DNA of 64,000 nt, taken from positions 1 through 64,000 of the forward strand of contig CATNCF010000011.1 in assembly GCA_950097145.1 (NCBI GenBank), written 5' to 3'. The notes beneath the pieces are model-generated. The model was not told where the DNA came from. It searched no databases and was given only the letters and a program-made list of their open reading frames with translations. The position numbers were made by a program, and so were the translations under genes. Shown here piece after piece: positions 4,701-51,890 of this stretch. The stretch's first letter is position 1. Each line of letters starts with the position of its first letter. Origin of the DNA: an uncultured Lachnospiraceae bacterium (GTDB taxonomy: Bacteria > Bacillota > Clostridia > Lachnospirales > Lachnospiraceae).

Positions 4701-5795
4701 ATGAAACCTGAAAAAATTGGTTTTATCGGCCTTGGCCTCATTGGAGGCTCTATTGCCAAAACAATCCACCGGATTCACCCAGAACTCACTTTGATTGCAT
4801 ATGATACAGACACAAACGCTTTAAATCTTGCACAAAAAGAAGACGTAATTTCCGCCGGATATCAGGAATTGACAGATGATTTTGCAGAATGCCGTTATAT
4901 TTTTTTATGTGCGCCTGTACAGAAAAATGCAGAATTTCTTGCAAAACTCTCCGCCTTTGCTGGTACAGACTGCACCATTACCGATACCGGAAGTGTCAAA
5001 ACCTCCATCCACCAGGCAATTGCCCGAGCTGGGCTTTCCCCCTATTTTATTGGAGGACACCCCATGGCAGGCTCTGAAAAAAGCGGCTATGAACATGCAT
5101 CTTCCTATCTTCTGGAAAATGCATACTATATTCTCACACCTTCCCTGGAAACCCCAACAGAAACTGTCCAGGAATTTCAAGATTTTATCAGTTCCCTTGG
5201 AACCATCACAATGATAATGGATTATCAGGAACATGATTTCATCACTGCCTCCATCAGCCACCTGCCCCATATCCTGGCCTCCAGCCTGGTAAATCTGGTA
5301 AAAGATCTTGACAACGAGACAGAAACCATGAAACATATTGCGGCCGGAGGATTCCGGGATATCACAAGAATTGCCTCCTCCTCACCTGTCATGTGGCAGC
5401 AAATCTGCCTCACTAATCAGGAACAGATTGCAAAGCTGATAGAATTGTTTATTCATTCTCTGGAACAAACAAAAAAGCGCATTTCTTCCGGCAGCGGCCA
5501 GGAACTGTTTGATTTCTTCCAGACAGCGAAAGATTACAGGGATTCTATTACCATCAGCACTTCCGGCCCTCTGCCAAAAGTATTTGAAATCTACTGCGAT
5601 ATGGCAGATGAAACAGGAGGAATTGCAGCTCTTGCCACCATTTTATCCCAGGAAAATATCAGTATTAAAAATATTGGAATTATCCATAACCGGGAGTTTC
5701 AGGATGGCGTACTGCATATAGAGTTTTACGATGAAGCAGCCAGAACGAATGCCGTCAAATTGCTGCGGAACTGCCAATACACAGTACATGAATAA
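4701..5795 (+). CDS. tyrA: prephenate dehydrogenase
   Basis: 364 aa. It oxidises and decarboxylates prephenate to 4-hydroxyphenylpyruvate in tyrosine synthesis. The N-terminus has the NAD-binding motif GFIGLGLIGGSIA, the middle has the family motif GGHPMAGSEKSG and the helix around ISHLPHILASSLV, and residues about 295-364 look like an ACT regulatory domain, implying feedback control by an amino acid. No chorismate mutase domain is present. AGGAGGAGATT precedes the ATG. aroA follows 19 nt downstream, so the two are very likely one operon. Confidence 0.95.
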   Translation: MKPEKIGFIGLGLIGGSIAKTIHRIHPELTLIAYDTDTNALNLAQKEDVISAGYQELTDDFAECRYIFLCAPVQKNAEFLAKLSAFAGTDCTITDTGSVKTSIHQAIARAGLSPYFIGGHPMAGSEKSGYEHASSYLLENAYYILTPSLETPTETVQEFQDFISSLGTITMIMDYQEHDFITASISHLPHILASSLVNLVKDLDNETETMKHIAAGGFRDITRIASSSPVMWQQICLTNQEQIAKLIELFIHSLEQTKKRISSGSGQELFDFFQTAKDYRDSITISTSGPLPKVFEIYCDMADETGGIAALATILSQENISIKNIGIIHNREFQDGVLHIEFYDEAARTNAVKLLRNCQYTVHE

Positions 5796-5814
5796 AAAGA
5801 ACGAGGTAACTGCT

Positions 5815-7125
5815 ATGAAAATTACTGATCATTATACATTTCACGGGGAATTAACCGTCCCCGGTGATAAATCTATTTCTCACCGAGGAATTATGTTCGG
5901 ATCCATTTCCAATGGATTAACGGAAATTACAAATTTCCTGCAAGGCGCTGACTGTCTCTCCACTATTTCCTGTTTCCGCAAACTTGGAATCTCCATTGAA
6001 AATAACGGTTCCAGTGTCCTGATCCATGGAAAGGGGCTCCATGGGCTTACCGCCCCCACTCAGATCCTGGATGTTGGAAACAGCGGCACTACCACGCGGC
6101 TGATTTCAGGAATTCTAGCTGGACAGTCTTTTGAGAGCACTCTTGACGGCGACAACTCCATTCGAAAACGCCCCATGAAACGCATCTTTACGCCGCTTTC
6201 CCAGATGGGCGCCAGGTTTCAGTGCTGGAGTAGTGATTTCTTCCCTGACAGAACAGAACTCTCCGATTCCGGCTGTGCCCCGTTTACGATACAGGGCGGT
6301 TCTCTGGACGGCATCCATTATCAGTCTCCCGTGGCCTCCGCCCAGGTAAAATCTGCAATTCTCCTTGCAGGATTGTATGCAGAAGGTGACACCAGCGTCA
6401 CGGAGCCTGTGTTATCCAGAAATCATACGGAACTGATGCTGGCCGGCTTTGGCGCCCAGATTACATCTGCGGGCGTTACGGCTTCCATAAAGCCGGAACC
6501 TGTGCTGAATGGGCAGAAAATCCGTGTACCTGGAGATATTTCATCCGCAGCCTATTTTATTGCCCTTGGTCTGATTACTCCCCATTCGGAGATATTAATT
6601 CAAAATGTGGGAGTAAATCCCACCCGGAGCGGCATTCTTAAAACAGCCCTTGCCATGGGCGGAGCTGTCACACTTTTGAATGAACGGCTGGTTTCCGGGG
6701 AACCGGTTGCAGATATCCTGGTAAAAAGCAGCAGCCTTCATGGCACAACCATCCAAGGCAGCCTGATTCCCACTCTTATTGATGAAATTCCTGTCATTGC
6801 CGTGATTGCAGCTTTTGCAGAGGGCACCACAGTTATCCAGGATGCCCAGGAACTGAAAGTAAAGGAATCTGACCGGATTGCTGTGGTCACAGAAAACCTG
6901 CAGGCAATGGGCGGTTCCGTTGAACCCACGGAAGACGGCATGATAATTGAGGGTGGAAAAGCCCTGCACGGCGCATTTATCCATACCTGCCAGGATCACA
7001 GAATCGCCATGGCTTTTACCATTGCAGGACTGAATGCTTCTGGCGAAACGATCCTGGATGATGAAACCTGCACCGCCATTTCTTATCCATCTTTTTACAA
7101 TGACATTCTTTCTCTTACAAGATAA
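5815..7125 (+). CDS. aroA: 3-phosphoshikimate 1-carboxyvinyltransferase (EPSP synthase)
   Basis: 436 aa. It joins PEP to shikimate-3-phosphate in the shikimate pathway. The N-terminal PGDKSISHRG, the GNSGTTTRL phosphate loop, the RKRPMKR segment and the C-terminal KVKESDR and DHRIAMAF motifs are all present, so the enzyme looks intact. The ORF track begins 28 codons earlier inside tyrA. The ATG at 5815 is preferred because it follows GAGGT and matches the usual family start. Downstream lies the 240 bp palindromic element, which may act as the operon end. Confidence 0.95.
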   Translation: MKITDHYTFHGELTVPGDKSISHRGIMFGSISNGLTEITNFLQGADCLSTISCFRKLGISIENNGSSVLIHGKGLHGLTAPTQILDVGNSGTTTRLISGILAGQSFESTLDGDNSIRKRPMKRIFTPLSQMGARFQCWSSDFFPDRTELSDSGCAPFTIQGGSLDGIHYQSPVASAQVKSAILLAGLYAEGDTSVTEPVLSRNHTELMLAGFGAQITSAGVTASIKPEPVLNGQKIRVPGDISSAAYFIALGLITPHSEILIQNVGVNPTRSGILKTALAMGGAVTLLNERLVSGEPVADILVKSSSLHGTTIQGSLIPTLIDEIPVIAVIAAFAEGTTVIQDAQELKVKESDRIAVVTENLQAMGGSVEPTEDGMIIEGGKALHGAFIHTCQDHRIAMAFTIAGLNASGETILDDETCTAISYPSFYNDILSLTR

Positions 7126-7131
7126 ACAACA

Positions 7132-7371
7132 TAGAAGGGACTGTTGTGCTAAGGCGGTTAAATGTCGATGCTTTTACTTGACTAAATTTTTATCTGCTGC
7201 GTTGTCATCAATCGCTGCAGCTCAATCTTCCTCTTGCAGATAGAAACTTATTCTGTGTAAAATTCATTCGATATTTAACCGCCTTATTAATATAAATCGA
7301 GAGAGTTCTACAATATACGGTACAAATTACTATATATTGCAGAAACTCTGTATTTTCAACAGTCCCTTCTA
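7132..7371. mobile_element. MITE-like 240 bp element with 15 bp perfect terminal inverted repeats
   Basis: TAGAAGGGACTGTTG (7132-7146) is repeated exactly in inverted form as CAACAGTCCCTTCTA (7357-7371). The ends begin and finish with TA. Inside are the structured repeat copy 2 (7150-7286) and a further imperfect stem from GAGAGTTCTACAATATA to TATATTGCAGAAACTCT. It has no coding capacity. The right end touches the stop codon of the IbrB-like gene and the left end lies 6 nt after aroA. It could be a non-autonomous transposon, or a terminator that has been split by an inserted repeat. Confidence 0.6.
7150..7286. repeat. structured palindromic repeat, copy 2
   Basis: TAAGGCGGTTAAATGTCGA...TCGATATTTAACCGCCTTA, same layout as copies 1 and 3. 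It has a shortened apical hairpin (about 12 nt deleted). The inner stem is TATCTGC/GCAGATA, where copies 1 and 3 have CATCTGC/GCAGATG. The outer pair is AA/TT instead of CC/GG. Both are paired substitutions that keep base pairing. Confidence 0.8.
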
Positions 7372-7965
7372 AGTCGTTTTTATCTCTTCCGTCTCCTCGG
7401 ACAAACTCTCTTCCTTTTCTTTTTCCATCTGGACTGCCGTTTCGTCCACAGGTTTCCATGCCTGTCCAAATTTCACATCGCGGAACAGTTCTGTCAATCC
7501 GGTAATCTGTTTCAGCCGCAGAATTTCATCCCTGCTCATTCCCATATGCTTGGAAATCCAGGCGTCTGATCTTCCAATGGTATGAAGCTCCTTTACAATA
7601 TTGCTCATCAAGTCTACGTCATGGCTGCCTCTGGCCCGATTATGCCGTATGGTGCTTGCCATCCGGTTCGACAGAGGTTTATTGATGACTGTAACTGGAA
7701 GCATTCCATTTTCCCGCTGATAGATATCCTTATGGTTCAGCATAATCTGATAACGGTGAAATCCGTCCACAATTACATACACATCCTGAGGTTTTGAATA
7801 ATAACAGACTATTGGCATGGTATAGCCGTCTTCCTTGATACTGTCATATAACAGCCTCATTTCTGGCGGTGCAACTGCATTTGGATTATATGTATTTGGC
7901 ACTATTTTTTCGATAGGAACTGACAGAACCTGATAAGCAGGACTTTTGTATATTTTATCACTCAT
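7369..7965 (-). CDS. ParB-like nuclease-fold protein, IbrB-like
   Basis: 198 aa. The N-terminal two thirds form a ParB/sulfiredoxin-type domain: the NTYNPNAV segment, then DGFHRYQIM (the D-G-x-H-R signature) and HNRARGSHD. This is followed by a short helical part and an acidic tail (EKEKEESLSEETEE). IbrB of E. coli has the same architecture and is encoded beside IbrA, as here. The start ATGAGTGA overlaps the end of the upstream ibrA-like gene by 8 nt with GGAGGG inside that gene, so translation is probably coupled. The stop codon abuts the palindromic element. Biochemical function is not established; DNA or nucleotide binding is an inference from fold. Confidence 0.75.
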   Translation of the reverse strand: MSDKIYKSPAYQVLSVPIEKIVPNTYNPNAVAPPEMRLLYDSIKEDGYTMPIVCYYSKPQDVYVIVDGFHRYQIMLNHKDIYQRENGMLPVTVINKPLSNRMASTIRHNRARGSHDVDLMSNIVKELHTIGRSDAWISKHMGMSRDEILRLKQITGLTELFRDVKFGQAWKPVDETAVQMEKEKEESLSEETEEIKTT

Positions 7966-9274
7966 TTACAAACCCTCCATATTTTTTCCGTATGATATCA
8001 ATCTGCTCCTGTTCCTTTCTGGACATTCCAAATCCCATAAAACGGCATATATGGTCATTTTTCAGAATACAATAACACATCCTCTTCCAGCTTGGAATAT
8101 CTTTGGTAGATTTAATATCATCTGTATGGTCTGGAATCTTTCCCACAAAAATCACTCTAGAATTCTTGTTTACCGTATAATTTGAGATTCCATTTCTCTG
8201 AATTTTATAGCCGTGATCCAGCAGTTCCTGAATGGTCTCCTCCGGCAGGCCCCCGCCTGTCTCATGCCAGAATTTAATAGAAGTCCGAAACTTTTTGACA
8301 TAATTATTCCGAATCCGTACAGGCAGCGTATCCAGCAGAAATTTGGTATAAGATTCCCAGGTATGCCCTTCCGGCAGAGAAATATTCCGATAAGCCATGG
8401 CTTTGGTGCGGGCATAAACCGAAGTAAAATTCGCTCCCCTCACCCGTCCCACCAGTTTGGTCCACATTTCTGGATCAATGACCCGGTACAGGTTCAGGCT
8501 GTCCTTGGCATATTCATTAAAAGGCGACGCCACACGCATCTGACTGGGCGTTAATCCGGCCTTGTAATACAAATCGTACAGTTTATTATATTCATACCCA
8601 AATTTATAATATGCTGCCCAAATATCATTGTTGGTCCAATCATAAAGGGGCGATGCACACCAGACGTCTTTAAACTGTTTTGTTATCCAGCATTCTCCCT
8701 GGTAACCATATTTTTTATGTAGAAAACCGCTGTAACGCTGCATGGATTCCTCCGCGCGCATCCCCAAAAGACATACTGTTTTCCCTCTTCGGTGCTGTTC
8801 TTTATAAAATCTGCTGAACTGTTTCGCCAGATCTTCCTGAGGCATTTTATATCGGTAATGATGGAATGGATTCTTCAAAGTTATAACGTATGGATGCTTG
8901 GGCATAGGGCGGACCCAAAGTTCCTCCTTATTATCATCCCAGGGATACCAGTACATCTCATAACTGCTGAGTGCAGTCTTTGCCGCCATAGGAAGGCATA
9001 CCCAATACAAATCCATTTCCTGTTCCATCTTCAGAAATGTCTTTTCCACATATTCAGTTGTCATACTGTATTGTGCTTCAAAATCCTGATGGAACATACC
9101 GACCAGGCGATTGGGATAATGCTGCCGCTTAAAGTCCAGTAAAAGGTTCAGCAGCAGTCCGCTGTCTTTGCCTCCACTGAAAGAAACATAGATATTTTCA
9201 AATTCCTGAAACAGAAAATGAAAACGTTTTTGAAGTGCTTCATACACATTTTCTTCCTGGTATTGTCGTACCAT
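7958..9274 (-). CDS. PAPS reductase-family protein with DUF3440-type C-terminus, IbrA-like
   Basis: 438 aa. Residues about 25-45 contain the PP-loop SFSGGKDSG, typical of the ATP-pyrophosphatase/PAPS reductase superfamily. The segment LLGMRAEESMQR and the following Cys/Trp-rich region fit the same fold, and the long C-terminal half matches what is known as DUF3440. It pairs with the IbrB-like gene in an overlapping operon driven from a good promoter at 9334-9362. IbrA/IbrB were described as activators of E. coli immunoglobulin-binding genes, but none of their targets is visible here. The chemistry (adenylation, thiolation or none) is unknown. A housekeeping sulfate reductase is less likely because of the length and partner. 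Confidence 0.8.
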   Translation of the reverse strand: MVRQYQEENVYEALQKRFHFLFQEFENIYVSFSGGKDSGLLLNLLLDFKRQHYPNRLVGMFHQDFEAQYSMTTEYVEKTFLKMEQEMDLYWVCLPMAAKTALSSYEMYWYPWDDNKEELWVRPMPKHPYVITLKNPFHHYRYKMPQEDLAKQFSRFYKEQHRRGKTVCLLGMRAEESMQRYSGFLHKKYGYQGECWITKQFKDVWCASPLYDWTNNDIWAAYYKFGYEYNKLYDLYYKAGLTPSQMRVASPFNEYAKDSLNLYRVIDPEMWTKLVGRVRGANFTSVYARTKAMAYRNISLPEGHTWESYTKFLLDTLPVRIRNNYVKKFRTSIKFWHETGGGLPEETIQELLDHGYKIQRNGISNYTVNKNSRVIFVGKIPDHTDDIKSTKDIPSWKRMCYCILKNDHICRFMGFGMSRKEQEQIDIIRKKYGGFVNE

Positions 9275-9333: not shown

Positions 9334-9362
9334 ATTATACTACTTACATGTTCCTTCCTCAA
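9334..9362 (-). promoter_or_regulatory. promoter of the ibrAB-like operon
   Basis: On the minus strand TTGAGG, 17 nt, TATAAT. The predicted transcript begins about 50 nt before the ATG of the IbrA-like gene. Confidence 0.65.
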
Positions 9363-9434: not shown

Positions 9435-9478
9435 CAAAAATACCGCTCTTACAATCATACTGTAAGAACGGTATTTTT
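9435..9478. terminator. bidirectional terminator
   Basis: AAAAATACCG-CTCTTACA-atcatac-TGTAAGA-aCGGTATTTTT: a long stem with an A-run before and a T-run after. It ends the minus-strand GyrI/DUF3795 gene and separates it from the IbrAB-like promoter. Confidence 0.8.
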
Positions 9479-9492
9479 ACTCTTTAAAAGCT

Positions 9493-10221
9493 TTACCTCA
9501 ATGCTGCCCACTCCCTGCACTGCTGGATACGTTTCCCATTATCCCCCTGCTTCTCGTCATAGGCAAATTGCCGCAGCACATCACAGGGAAAATTTTCACA
9601 GTTCCCGCAGTGTTCCAGACGTTTTTCTTCCCCGCAGGACTTGACTGGACAGGAATCACCCCAAAACGGTTTTTGTATATGTATACATCCCTTACACCCC
9701 ATCTGTTCACGATAGGGACATGCACTGCACAAAAGCCCGCATCTGGACTCAGCCTGATTTTTTCCTTCCTCAGCCAGCCCAACATAAATATGAATCTCTG
9801 CCTGATCCATGGAATCGTTTTGATATTCTTCAAAATCACACTGGAAATTTCTGGGCAGGTCCATCTGCCAGATTTCCTGCCACGCCGCTGCAACTGCCTT
9901 CACCATGTCCCCATGAACCACAAATTTTGCATACCGGCCCCCGGGAATACGGCAGACCTTATATGTTTCTCCCTTTGGCTCTTCTGTCACCTCACATGCA
10001 GCTATGGCTGTATACTCCCCTTTTTCATCCCCGGCGTACTCGGTATAAATCCCCAAAGCTTTTCCATTTCCTTTGTTTGGAATGGATGGGTGGATTCCCT
10101 GATTGTAAAAACGGTTCCACAATCCCCCGATCACAGCGCCCATATCAGGAGAAGCATTGCTTGTCCTGGCCGATACGCCCACGGCAATTTTCTCTTTCAA
10201 CGTAACAATTTCATATTCCAT
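9493..10221 (-). CDS. GyrI-like effector-binding domain fused to a DUF3795-type cysteine cluster
   Basis: 242 aa. Residues 1-155 resemble the AraC effector-binding/GyrI-like small-molecule domain (opening EYEIVTLKEKIAVGV, and GGRYAKFVVHGD). Residues about 160-215 contain CGLLCSACPY, CKGC, CPVKSCG, CGNCENFPC: a dense cysteine array of the DUF3795 kind that probably binds metal. No DNA-binding domain is present. It lies 63 nt downstream of the WYL regulator gene on the same strand and may share its transcript. The ligand is unknown. Confidence 0.75.
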   Translation of the reverse strand: MEYEIVTLKEKIAVGVSARTSNASPDMGAVIGGLWNRFYNQGIHPSIPNKGNGKALGIYTEYAGDEKGEYTAIAACEVTEEPKGETYKVCRIPGGRYAKFVVHGDMVKAVAAAWQEIWQMDLPRNFQCDFEEYQNDSMDQAEIHIYVGLAEEGKNQAESRCGLLCSACPYREQMGCKGCIHIQKPFWGDSCPVKSCGEEKRLEHCGNCENFPCDVLRQFAYDEKQGDNGKRIQQCREWAALR

Positions 10222-51386: not shown

Positions 51387-51547
51387 TATTACTCCGGCGG
51401 TTAAATATCGACGTTTTTACTTGCTTAAATTTCCATCTGCCACGTTGTCATCAATCGTTGCAGCACTCGCTACAACTCATTCTTCCGCCTTGCAGATGAA
51501 AATTTATTCTTCGTAAAATTCGTCGACATTTAACCGCCGGAGTAATA
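51387..51547. repeat. structured palindromic repeat, copy 3 (complete)
   Basis: 161 bp with outer arms TATTACTCCGGCGGTTAAATATCGACG and CGTCGACATTTAACCGCCGGAGTAATA, an inner stem CATCTGC/GCAGATG and an apical hairpin GTTGCAGC-GCTACAAC. It adjoins the C-terminal end of a gene remnant on the minus strand and probably truncated it. Confidence 0.85.
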
Positions 51548-51890
51548 TTAACTAACCAGACATTCAGAGTACAATTCTTAATAAATTCATCAATTCTATT
51601 AATTCCATTGATTTCTTTTAATGTAACTACAACGCCAAAACGAATTTCCATTCCTTCTTTAGGGTCTAAGCGGTTATTCGTTTTTATTTCCATTTCCCAG
51701 TTTTTATTATTAAAAATTTCTTCAGCATCATTTTATTATTTGGTCTTTCTGCAATATATTTTACATTATCCCATTTTCTAAACCGTTCTCTTGCTTCACC
51801 TTCCAAAAGAAAATATTTTTCATTATCTAATATAACATCCTGATTTTGTTTATCGCCTTTAATATCCTCTATCTTCCCTTTATTATTGAT
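51548..51890 (-). pseudogene. frameshifted gene remnant, cut by the repeat
   Basis: Reading on the minus strand gives an open stretch (NEKYFLLEGEARERFRKWDNVKYIAERPN) that ends in stops. The adjacent frame continues as NDAEEIFNNKNWEMEIKTNNRLDPKEGMEIRFGVVVTLKEINGINRIDEFIKNCTLNVWLVNI up to the repeat. A single-base slip in an AATAATAAAATGATG run joins the two. The 5' end is missing and the 3' end runs into the repeat. I do not recognise the parent family with certainty. Confidence 0.6.

Follow-up and report, generated by a model that had tools for sequence, protein, structure and literature searches.

An IbrA/IbrB gene pair with phage relatives in the core genome of a Lachnospiraceae genus

Introduction

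Gene pairs of the IbrA (DUF3440/COG3969) and IbrB (ParB-like) families are found in Escherichia coli K-12 (ybdN/ybdM), in Listeria (lmo1310/lmo1309; PMC5736727, PMC7020466), on hundreds of plasmids, and in many phages, and the family has been described before. Published phenotypes of IbrA/IbrB are regulatory only and concern eib expression in E. coli (cited in PMC7649339). The E. coli ybdNM operon is under CitR repression, and deleting citR raises ybdN about 45-fold (PMC9068703). In the literature searched, function is given only as co-activation of prophage genes, a link to virulence, or a predicted toxin-antitoxin role, and openly accessible papers yielded no worked-out mechanism for DUF3440/COG3969.

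Other described systems have parts in common with these pairs. DndB/DndC of DNA phosphorothioation likewise comprise a ParB-superfamily protein and a PP-loop protein; CysH, CysD, and eukaryotic FAD synthase share the PP-loop fold and the GxR/DW region with IbrA; and ParB, KorB, Noc, SerK, and SbnI share with IbrB a ParB-fold pocket for nucleotides that bears GxTxP and DGxHR boxes. Here, we report an IbrA/IbrB pair from an uncultured Lachnospiraceae bacterium, located in a 64,000-nucleotide stretch of DNA (the window; contig CATNCF010000011.1), and compare it with these systems.

Results

The pair lies on the minus strand and consists of an ibrA-like gene (7958..9274; 438 amino acids [aa]) encoding a PP-loop ATP pyrophosphatase domain followed by DUF3440 and an ibrB-like gene (7369..7965; 198 aa) encoding a minimal ParB-fold NTPase domain with a helix-turn-helix (HTH). 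The 3' end of ibrA overlaps the ibrB start by 8 nt (7958..7965, minus strand), an arrangement suggestive of coupling. IbrA carries SGGKDS (residues 33 to 38), GMRAEES, and PLYDW, and IbrB carries DGFHR (residues 67 to 71); the SGGKDS and DGFHR positions were read directly. Coordinates, motifs, and family models agree with the preliminary description of an SGGKDS PP-loop protein and a D-G-x-H-R ParB-fold protein encoded by overlapping genes.

The Pfam model DUF3440 (PF11922) matched IbrA over its full length, after the PP-loop domain and above the gathering score (292.8 bits against a cut-off of 25; E, 1.2e-87; profile positions 1 to 181 of 182), and PAPS_reduct matched with 38 bits (E, 2e-9). 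IbrA was assigned to PHROG 2302 (E, 3.6e-95), and IbrB, encoded directly 3' of ibrA, matched PHROG 2159 (ParB-like) over its full length (E, 1.1e-77). Chance matches are ruled out by the E values of PF11922 (1.2e-87) and PHROG 2159 (1e-77), and by these sequence matches the window pair is a clear member of the IbrA/IbrB family, as first proposed. Both families, the ibrA-ibrB order, and the overlapping frames are shared with E. coli IbrA/IbrB and YbdN/YbdM (identity to the latter, 32% for IbrA and 47% for IbrB); unlike YbdN/YbdM, the window pair has no adjacent LysR (CitR) gene, belongs to another clade, and sits next to aroA in the core of a Lachnospiraceae genus.

Over its first ~240 residues, the AlphaFold model of IbrA (pLDDT, 84.5) matched PP-loop enzymes, among them CysH, human FAD synthase, and CysD, and structure comparison gave no solved counterpart for the DUF3440 half; by profile, the best solved relatives were CysD and FAD synthase, then CysH. 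Across 78 sequences, S33, G35-S38, D64, E66, R173, E176, S177, R180, D212, and D217 were invariant, and the SGGKDS, DxE, GxRxxES, and DW columns were invariant or nearly so. No cysteine was invariant across IbrA relatives (C93 and C410 occur in 94% of one clade and are missing from several relatives). The pyrophosphate loop is of the ATP-splitting SGGKDS type, and the catalytic ECGLH of CysH is absent. At the level of predicted fold and motif, IbrA resembles PP-loop enzymes that transfer AMP; the SGGKDS loop, the missing ECGLH, and the lack of an invariant cysteine point to adenylate transfer from ATP rather than to sulfate reduction or cluster-based thiolation. In contrast to CysH, CysD, and FAD synthase, IbrA has a DUF3440 half with no solved match and a different partner.

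Assignment of IbrA as a PAPS reductase was rejected (TIGR00434, 16.4 bits against a cut-off of 165.1). Neither CysH nor CysD was found in the window genome (83% complete), in which the three PAPS_reduct matches are IbrA and two prophage-region proteins, and sulfur genes are not adjacent to the pair, so a role in sulfur assimilation was also set aside. Clustering with CysH or a place in a sulfur operon would have spoken against the module first proposed; IbrA shows no such clustering, and its locus is no sulfur operon.

The IbrB model (pLDDT, 81.7) had its best PDB matches in Noc, KorB, and ParB, HTH included, followed by sulfiredoxin and SbnI; SerK and SbnI are among its solved sequence relatives, and Noc/ParB score better. 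Invariant in IbrB are NPN and three nucleotide boxes, GxTxP, DGxHR (the ParB-fold box that binds phosphate), and RHNxARGxH. In chromosomal and phage sequences taken together, the third HTH helix (recognition helix; entropy, 0.62 bits) is as conserved as the phosphate box (0.63 bits), which suggests that the HTH makes a fixed contact with a partner or substrate rather than binding specific promoters. IbrB differs from ParB, KorB, and Noc in having RHNRARGxH instead of the ParB ENxQR box and in lacking ParA and a C-terminal dimer domain. A ParB partition protein was rejected (TIGR00180, 17.8 bits against 58.45; the neighbors are ibrA and aroA, with no adjacent parA), as was the free serine kinase SerK (model NF053625 scored 16.5 bits with a cut-off of 380 and covered residues 28 to 73 only).

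The preliminary description had also likened the pair to DndB/DndC, and this analogy failed. IbrB matched no DndB/DGQHR model in Pfam, NCBIfam, or PADLOC at E values up to 1, IbrA scored far below the DndC cut-off (TIGR03183, 23.3 bits against 290.4) and its relatives have no invariant cysteine, and no protein above the DndC cut-off was found in the window genome.

Three flanking elements had been ascribed to the cassette. A candidate sigma-70 promoter (TTGAGG-N17-TATAAT; 9334..9362, minus strand) belongs to a pattern whose count was not above that in shuffled sequence, but a similar AAGTA..ATA element occurs at a similar place 5' of ibrA in many congeners. The upstream-side terminator is real (9440..9480, minus strand; hairpin then T run; z, -6.7) but lies outside the pair, at its boundary, and ends the neighboring GyrI-like/DUF3795 gene (9493-10221, minus strand), whose end is 218 bp from ibrA. 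The downstream palindrome (7133..7370; z, -10.9) is likewise real and is a boundary feature between ibrB and the convergent aroA (5731-7125, plus strand); it is nested, and its outer arms, a 14-bp inverted repeat (7133-7146/7357-7370), flank a ~145-bp hairpin repeat together with other sequence. Because genome comparison placed this repeat at about 35 to 40 sites, the palindrome is not specific to the cassette and was rejected as one of its elements. It had no Rfam match. The repeat is MITE-like with TAAGGCGGTTAAAT-type ends, falls into two identity classes (~87% and ~77%), and has copies at 7149-7294, 51396-51551, and 1-113 of the window; it probably breaks the assembly, since several contigs (C11, C14, C16, C46, and C60) start inside a copy.

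DUF3440 gave a single match per genome in 27 of the 29 genomes available for the genus, one of these matches being a fragment where a contig ends; it was present in 24 of 150 genera sampled from Lachnospiraceae and in 3 of 300 genomes drawn from across the phylum. Pairing is obligate: IbrB was never without IbrA within the family sample (23 of 23 genomes with IbrB also had DUF3440), and the single genome with DUF3440 only held a fragment broken by stops. In most congeners, the pair is inherited vertically, together with its neighbors. Of 26 congeners, 21 share the window arrangement, with a convergent aroA on the downstream side, and in the remaining five, either the contig ends first (three) or the copy is elsewhere (two, L052 and L067). 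The two congeners without the pair have an MCP-like gene directly after aroA. Three congeners (L064, L065, and L068) have ATGAGAGTACGG in place of the usual ATGGTACGG at the ibrA start, a small N-terminal difference. The L052 pair, away from aroA, shares just 72% identity with that of the window and resembles copies outside the genus, possibly a replacement by transfer.

Median dN/dS over 22 loci was 0.050 for ibrA and 0.049 for ibrB; aroA and tyrA both stood at 0.097 and an EF-G-like gene at 0.022, so purifying selection on the pair is stronger than on aroA or tyrA. The dN of the EF-G-like gene correlated with that of ibrA (r, 0.79) and similarly with that of aroA (0.77). IbrA and IbrB distances were correlated (r, 0.69), exceeding all 1,000 permutations. 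Of 22 congener loci, 18 have overlapping frames, as do 45 of 54 other Lachnospiraceae loci; overlap or near contact as the rule in the family is in keeping with a stoichiometric IbrA-IbrB complex. The neighbor table showed no consistent operon partner in Lachnospiraceae outside the genus, and since chromosomal neighbors there are not conserved, the context does not fix the substrate.

A phage link, also proposed beforehand, was borne out. IbrA matched 216 phage and 590 plasmid records, and IbrB matched 220 phage records with nearly the same host counts. In a quick, unrooted tree, all Lachnospiraceae chromosomal copies formed one clade (support, 100) nested among phage copies and adjoining two viral contigs (L219 and L191; 57 to 61% identical), and the larger clade around them held phage and plasmid copies from Firmicutes and Bacteroides and also Listeria. 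A single acquisition of the pair from a phage-borne source, with vertical inheritance within the genus thereafter, fits these data and is probable; given a quick, unrooted tree, the direction of transfer is one that we infer.

Among 79 viral loci, a SNF2-cluster gene was present in 28, in most cases immediately 5' of ibrA and on its strand, and a superfamily 2 helicase (ResIII-type included) lay within six genes of ibrA in 39; about half had no helicase in the stretch read, and 46 had at least two ParB-like genes. The nearest viral relatives carry genes for a 360- to 390-aa protein, a SNF2 helicase, ibrA, and, where detected, ibrB. The protein directly 5' of SNF2 in the nearest cassettes (about 360 to 450 aa; L219 3541-4629, L190 3454-4602, L191 2584-3756, L192 3266-4630) has no Pfam match and an N-terminal C-x(n)-CPxC (also given as CxH...CPxC) pattern. 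In Listeria and in Streptococcus, Lactobacillus, and Fusobacterium phages, a small ORF, a helicase, ibrA, and ibrB occur in varying order; the Listeria lmo1309-lmo1310-lmo1311 and Streptococcus/Lactobacillus phage cassettes belong to the same larger clade (IbrA identity, 42 to 44%); upstream they have a SNF2 helicase and, as a rule, a small ORF, whereas the window pair has neither. GNAT, methyltransferase, and glycosyltransferase genes are among the phage neighbors, and in actinophages, Faecalibacterium phage Taranis, and the window genome's own prophage, a distant ibrAB pair stands beside terminase. The proximity of helicases and terminases to the pair in phages may be a matter of gene order alone.

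No specific SNF2 homologue or partner helicase was found in the window genome; the one candidate for a hidden partner, a general SNF2-type ORF of 1,017 aa with a weak match (E, 2e-5), was rejected. The genome's second, distant ibrA-ibrB pair, with another ParB-like gene (L300 13098-15476; C1, about 31.1 to 33.5 kb), adjoins terminase, portal, and head genes and is akin to that of Taranis, and a further PP-loop/PAPS_reduct protein is encoded in the same prophage region (C1:33663-34130). In Fusobacterium phage phiFN37, a ParB-like gene beside a queuine tRNA-ribosyltransferase (DpdA-like) gene (L176 9745-11030) lies ~3 kb from the phage's own ibrAB-helicase cassette, possibly two DNA modification systems side by side.

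Discussion

Our preferred reading, held tentatively with a probability of about 0.4, is that the pair makes up a two-protein enzyme of phage origin, in which IbrA transfers AMP to a substrate held by IbrB, that it came into Lachnospiraceae a single time, and that it is now a vertically inherited part of the genus core. It draws on the obligate pairing, the inheritance and selection data, the phage affinity and phage gene neighbors, the fold and motifs of IbrA, the fold and boxes of IbrB, the conservation of the IbrB HTH, and the frame overlap. IbrB would bind an NTP in its ParB-fold pocket, and its highly conserved HTH would hold either IbrA or the substrate, the latter most likely nucleic acid. 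IbrA would use ATP, release pyrophosphate, and place AMP on a substrate group, thereby activating it, as FAD synthase or ATP sulfurylase does, to yield nucleic acid or a nucleotide in modified form. The SNF2 helicase of phages probably opens or remodels DNA, and the chromosomal pair would act without it. This scheme, in which we infer nucleotide binding and AMP transfer as well as the substrate and the physiological role, is unlike that of any characterized system that was found. Against it count the purely regulatory published phenotypes, the viral loci (about half) with no helicase in the stretch read, and the unconserved chromosomal neighbors outside the genus. From the phage context, nucleic-acid modification is plausible; we know of no modified base in any IbrAB carrier. 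A bolder version seems unlikely: sulfur-independent two-protein nucleic-acid modification that originated in a phage helicase cassette and was domesticated by a gut Lachnospiraceae genus, the E. coli and Listeria pairs being separate chromosomal versions of the same chemistry.

The pair could instead be a regulator, with IbrB an NTP-gated DNA clamp or transcription factor of the KorB/Noc/VirB type whose nucleotide signal is made or removed by IbrA. We judge this possible, if somewhat doubtful, and keep it because regulation is the sole phenotype on record and IbrB has the fold of CTP switches. Higher Eib expression has been reported as an effect of ibrB (PMC7649339), Ibr abbreviates immunoglobulin-binding regulator, the related VirB is a CTP-switch activator (PMC10770331), ParB-fold proteins bind CTP, ATP, or GTP (PMC12704722), and the likeness of the IbrB model to Noc, KorB, and ParB extends to the HTH. 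A recognition helix that varies no more than the phosphate box, in phages and across phyla alike, is nevertheless unusual for a factor with host-specific targets, and the pair has neither a ParB-type C-terminal dimer domain nor a conserved neighbor as target. Abundance in phages and plasmids, together with the recurrence of SNF2 and ParB domains in conflict systems (PMC12839542, PMC10853773), would suit a phage-phage or host-phage conflict module (superinfection exclusion, defense, or counter-defense) retained by the host against phages, but PADLOC matches were weak and partial only, and steady vertical inheritance with slow evolution at one locus is atypical of defense genes; we regard such a module as unlikely.

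Small-molecule metabolism is slightly less probable still. A free-serine-kinase-like IbrB whose product IbrA adenylates or reduces in cysteine or sulfur metabolism would agree with SerK and SbnI as solved relatives, with the domain that IbrA has in common with CysD/CysH, and with the rise of cys genes alongside ybdNM in an E. coli citR mutant (PMC9068703), in which flagellar and other genes change too. Against it stand an HTH typical of ParB/KorB, the better Noc/ParB scores, a genome with no CysH or CysD found and no PAPS_reduct matches beyond IbrA and the two prophage-region proteins, and phage pairs that accompany helicases, not metabolic genes. The toxin-antitoxin role proposed by TASmania for Listeria lmo1309/lmo1310, a guilt-by-association listing (PMC7020466), is very improbable here: two small overlapping genes would fit, but IbrA has a complete PP-loop active site, dN/dS is 0.05, the pair is cleanly absent from two congeners, and no toxin family matched in Pfam, NCBIfam, PHROGs, or PADLOC.

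New for the IbrA/IbrB family, whatever its chemistry, are the genus-core status, the strength of selection, the likely origin from a phage cassette without its helicase, and the presence of a core and a distant prophage pair in one genome. The usual labels, PAPS reductase and partition protein, are misleading for these proteins. Since the pair is nearly fixed, slow-evolving, and partner-free in the genus, the core function must reside in just these two proteins, and the window locus is a minimal, clean system for a biochemical test of it.
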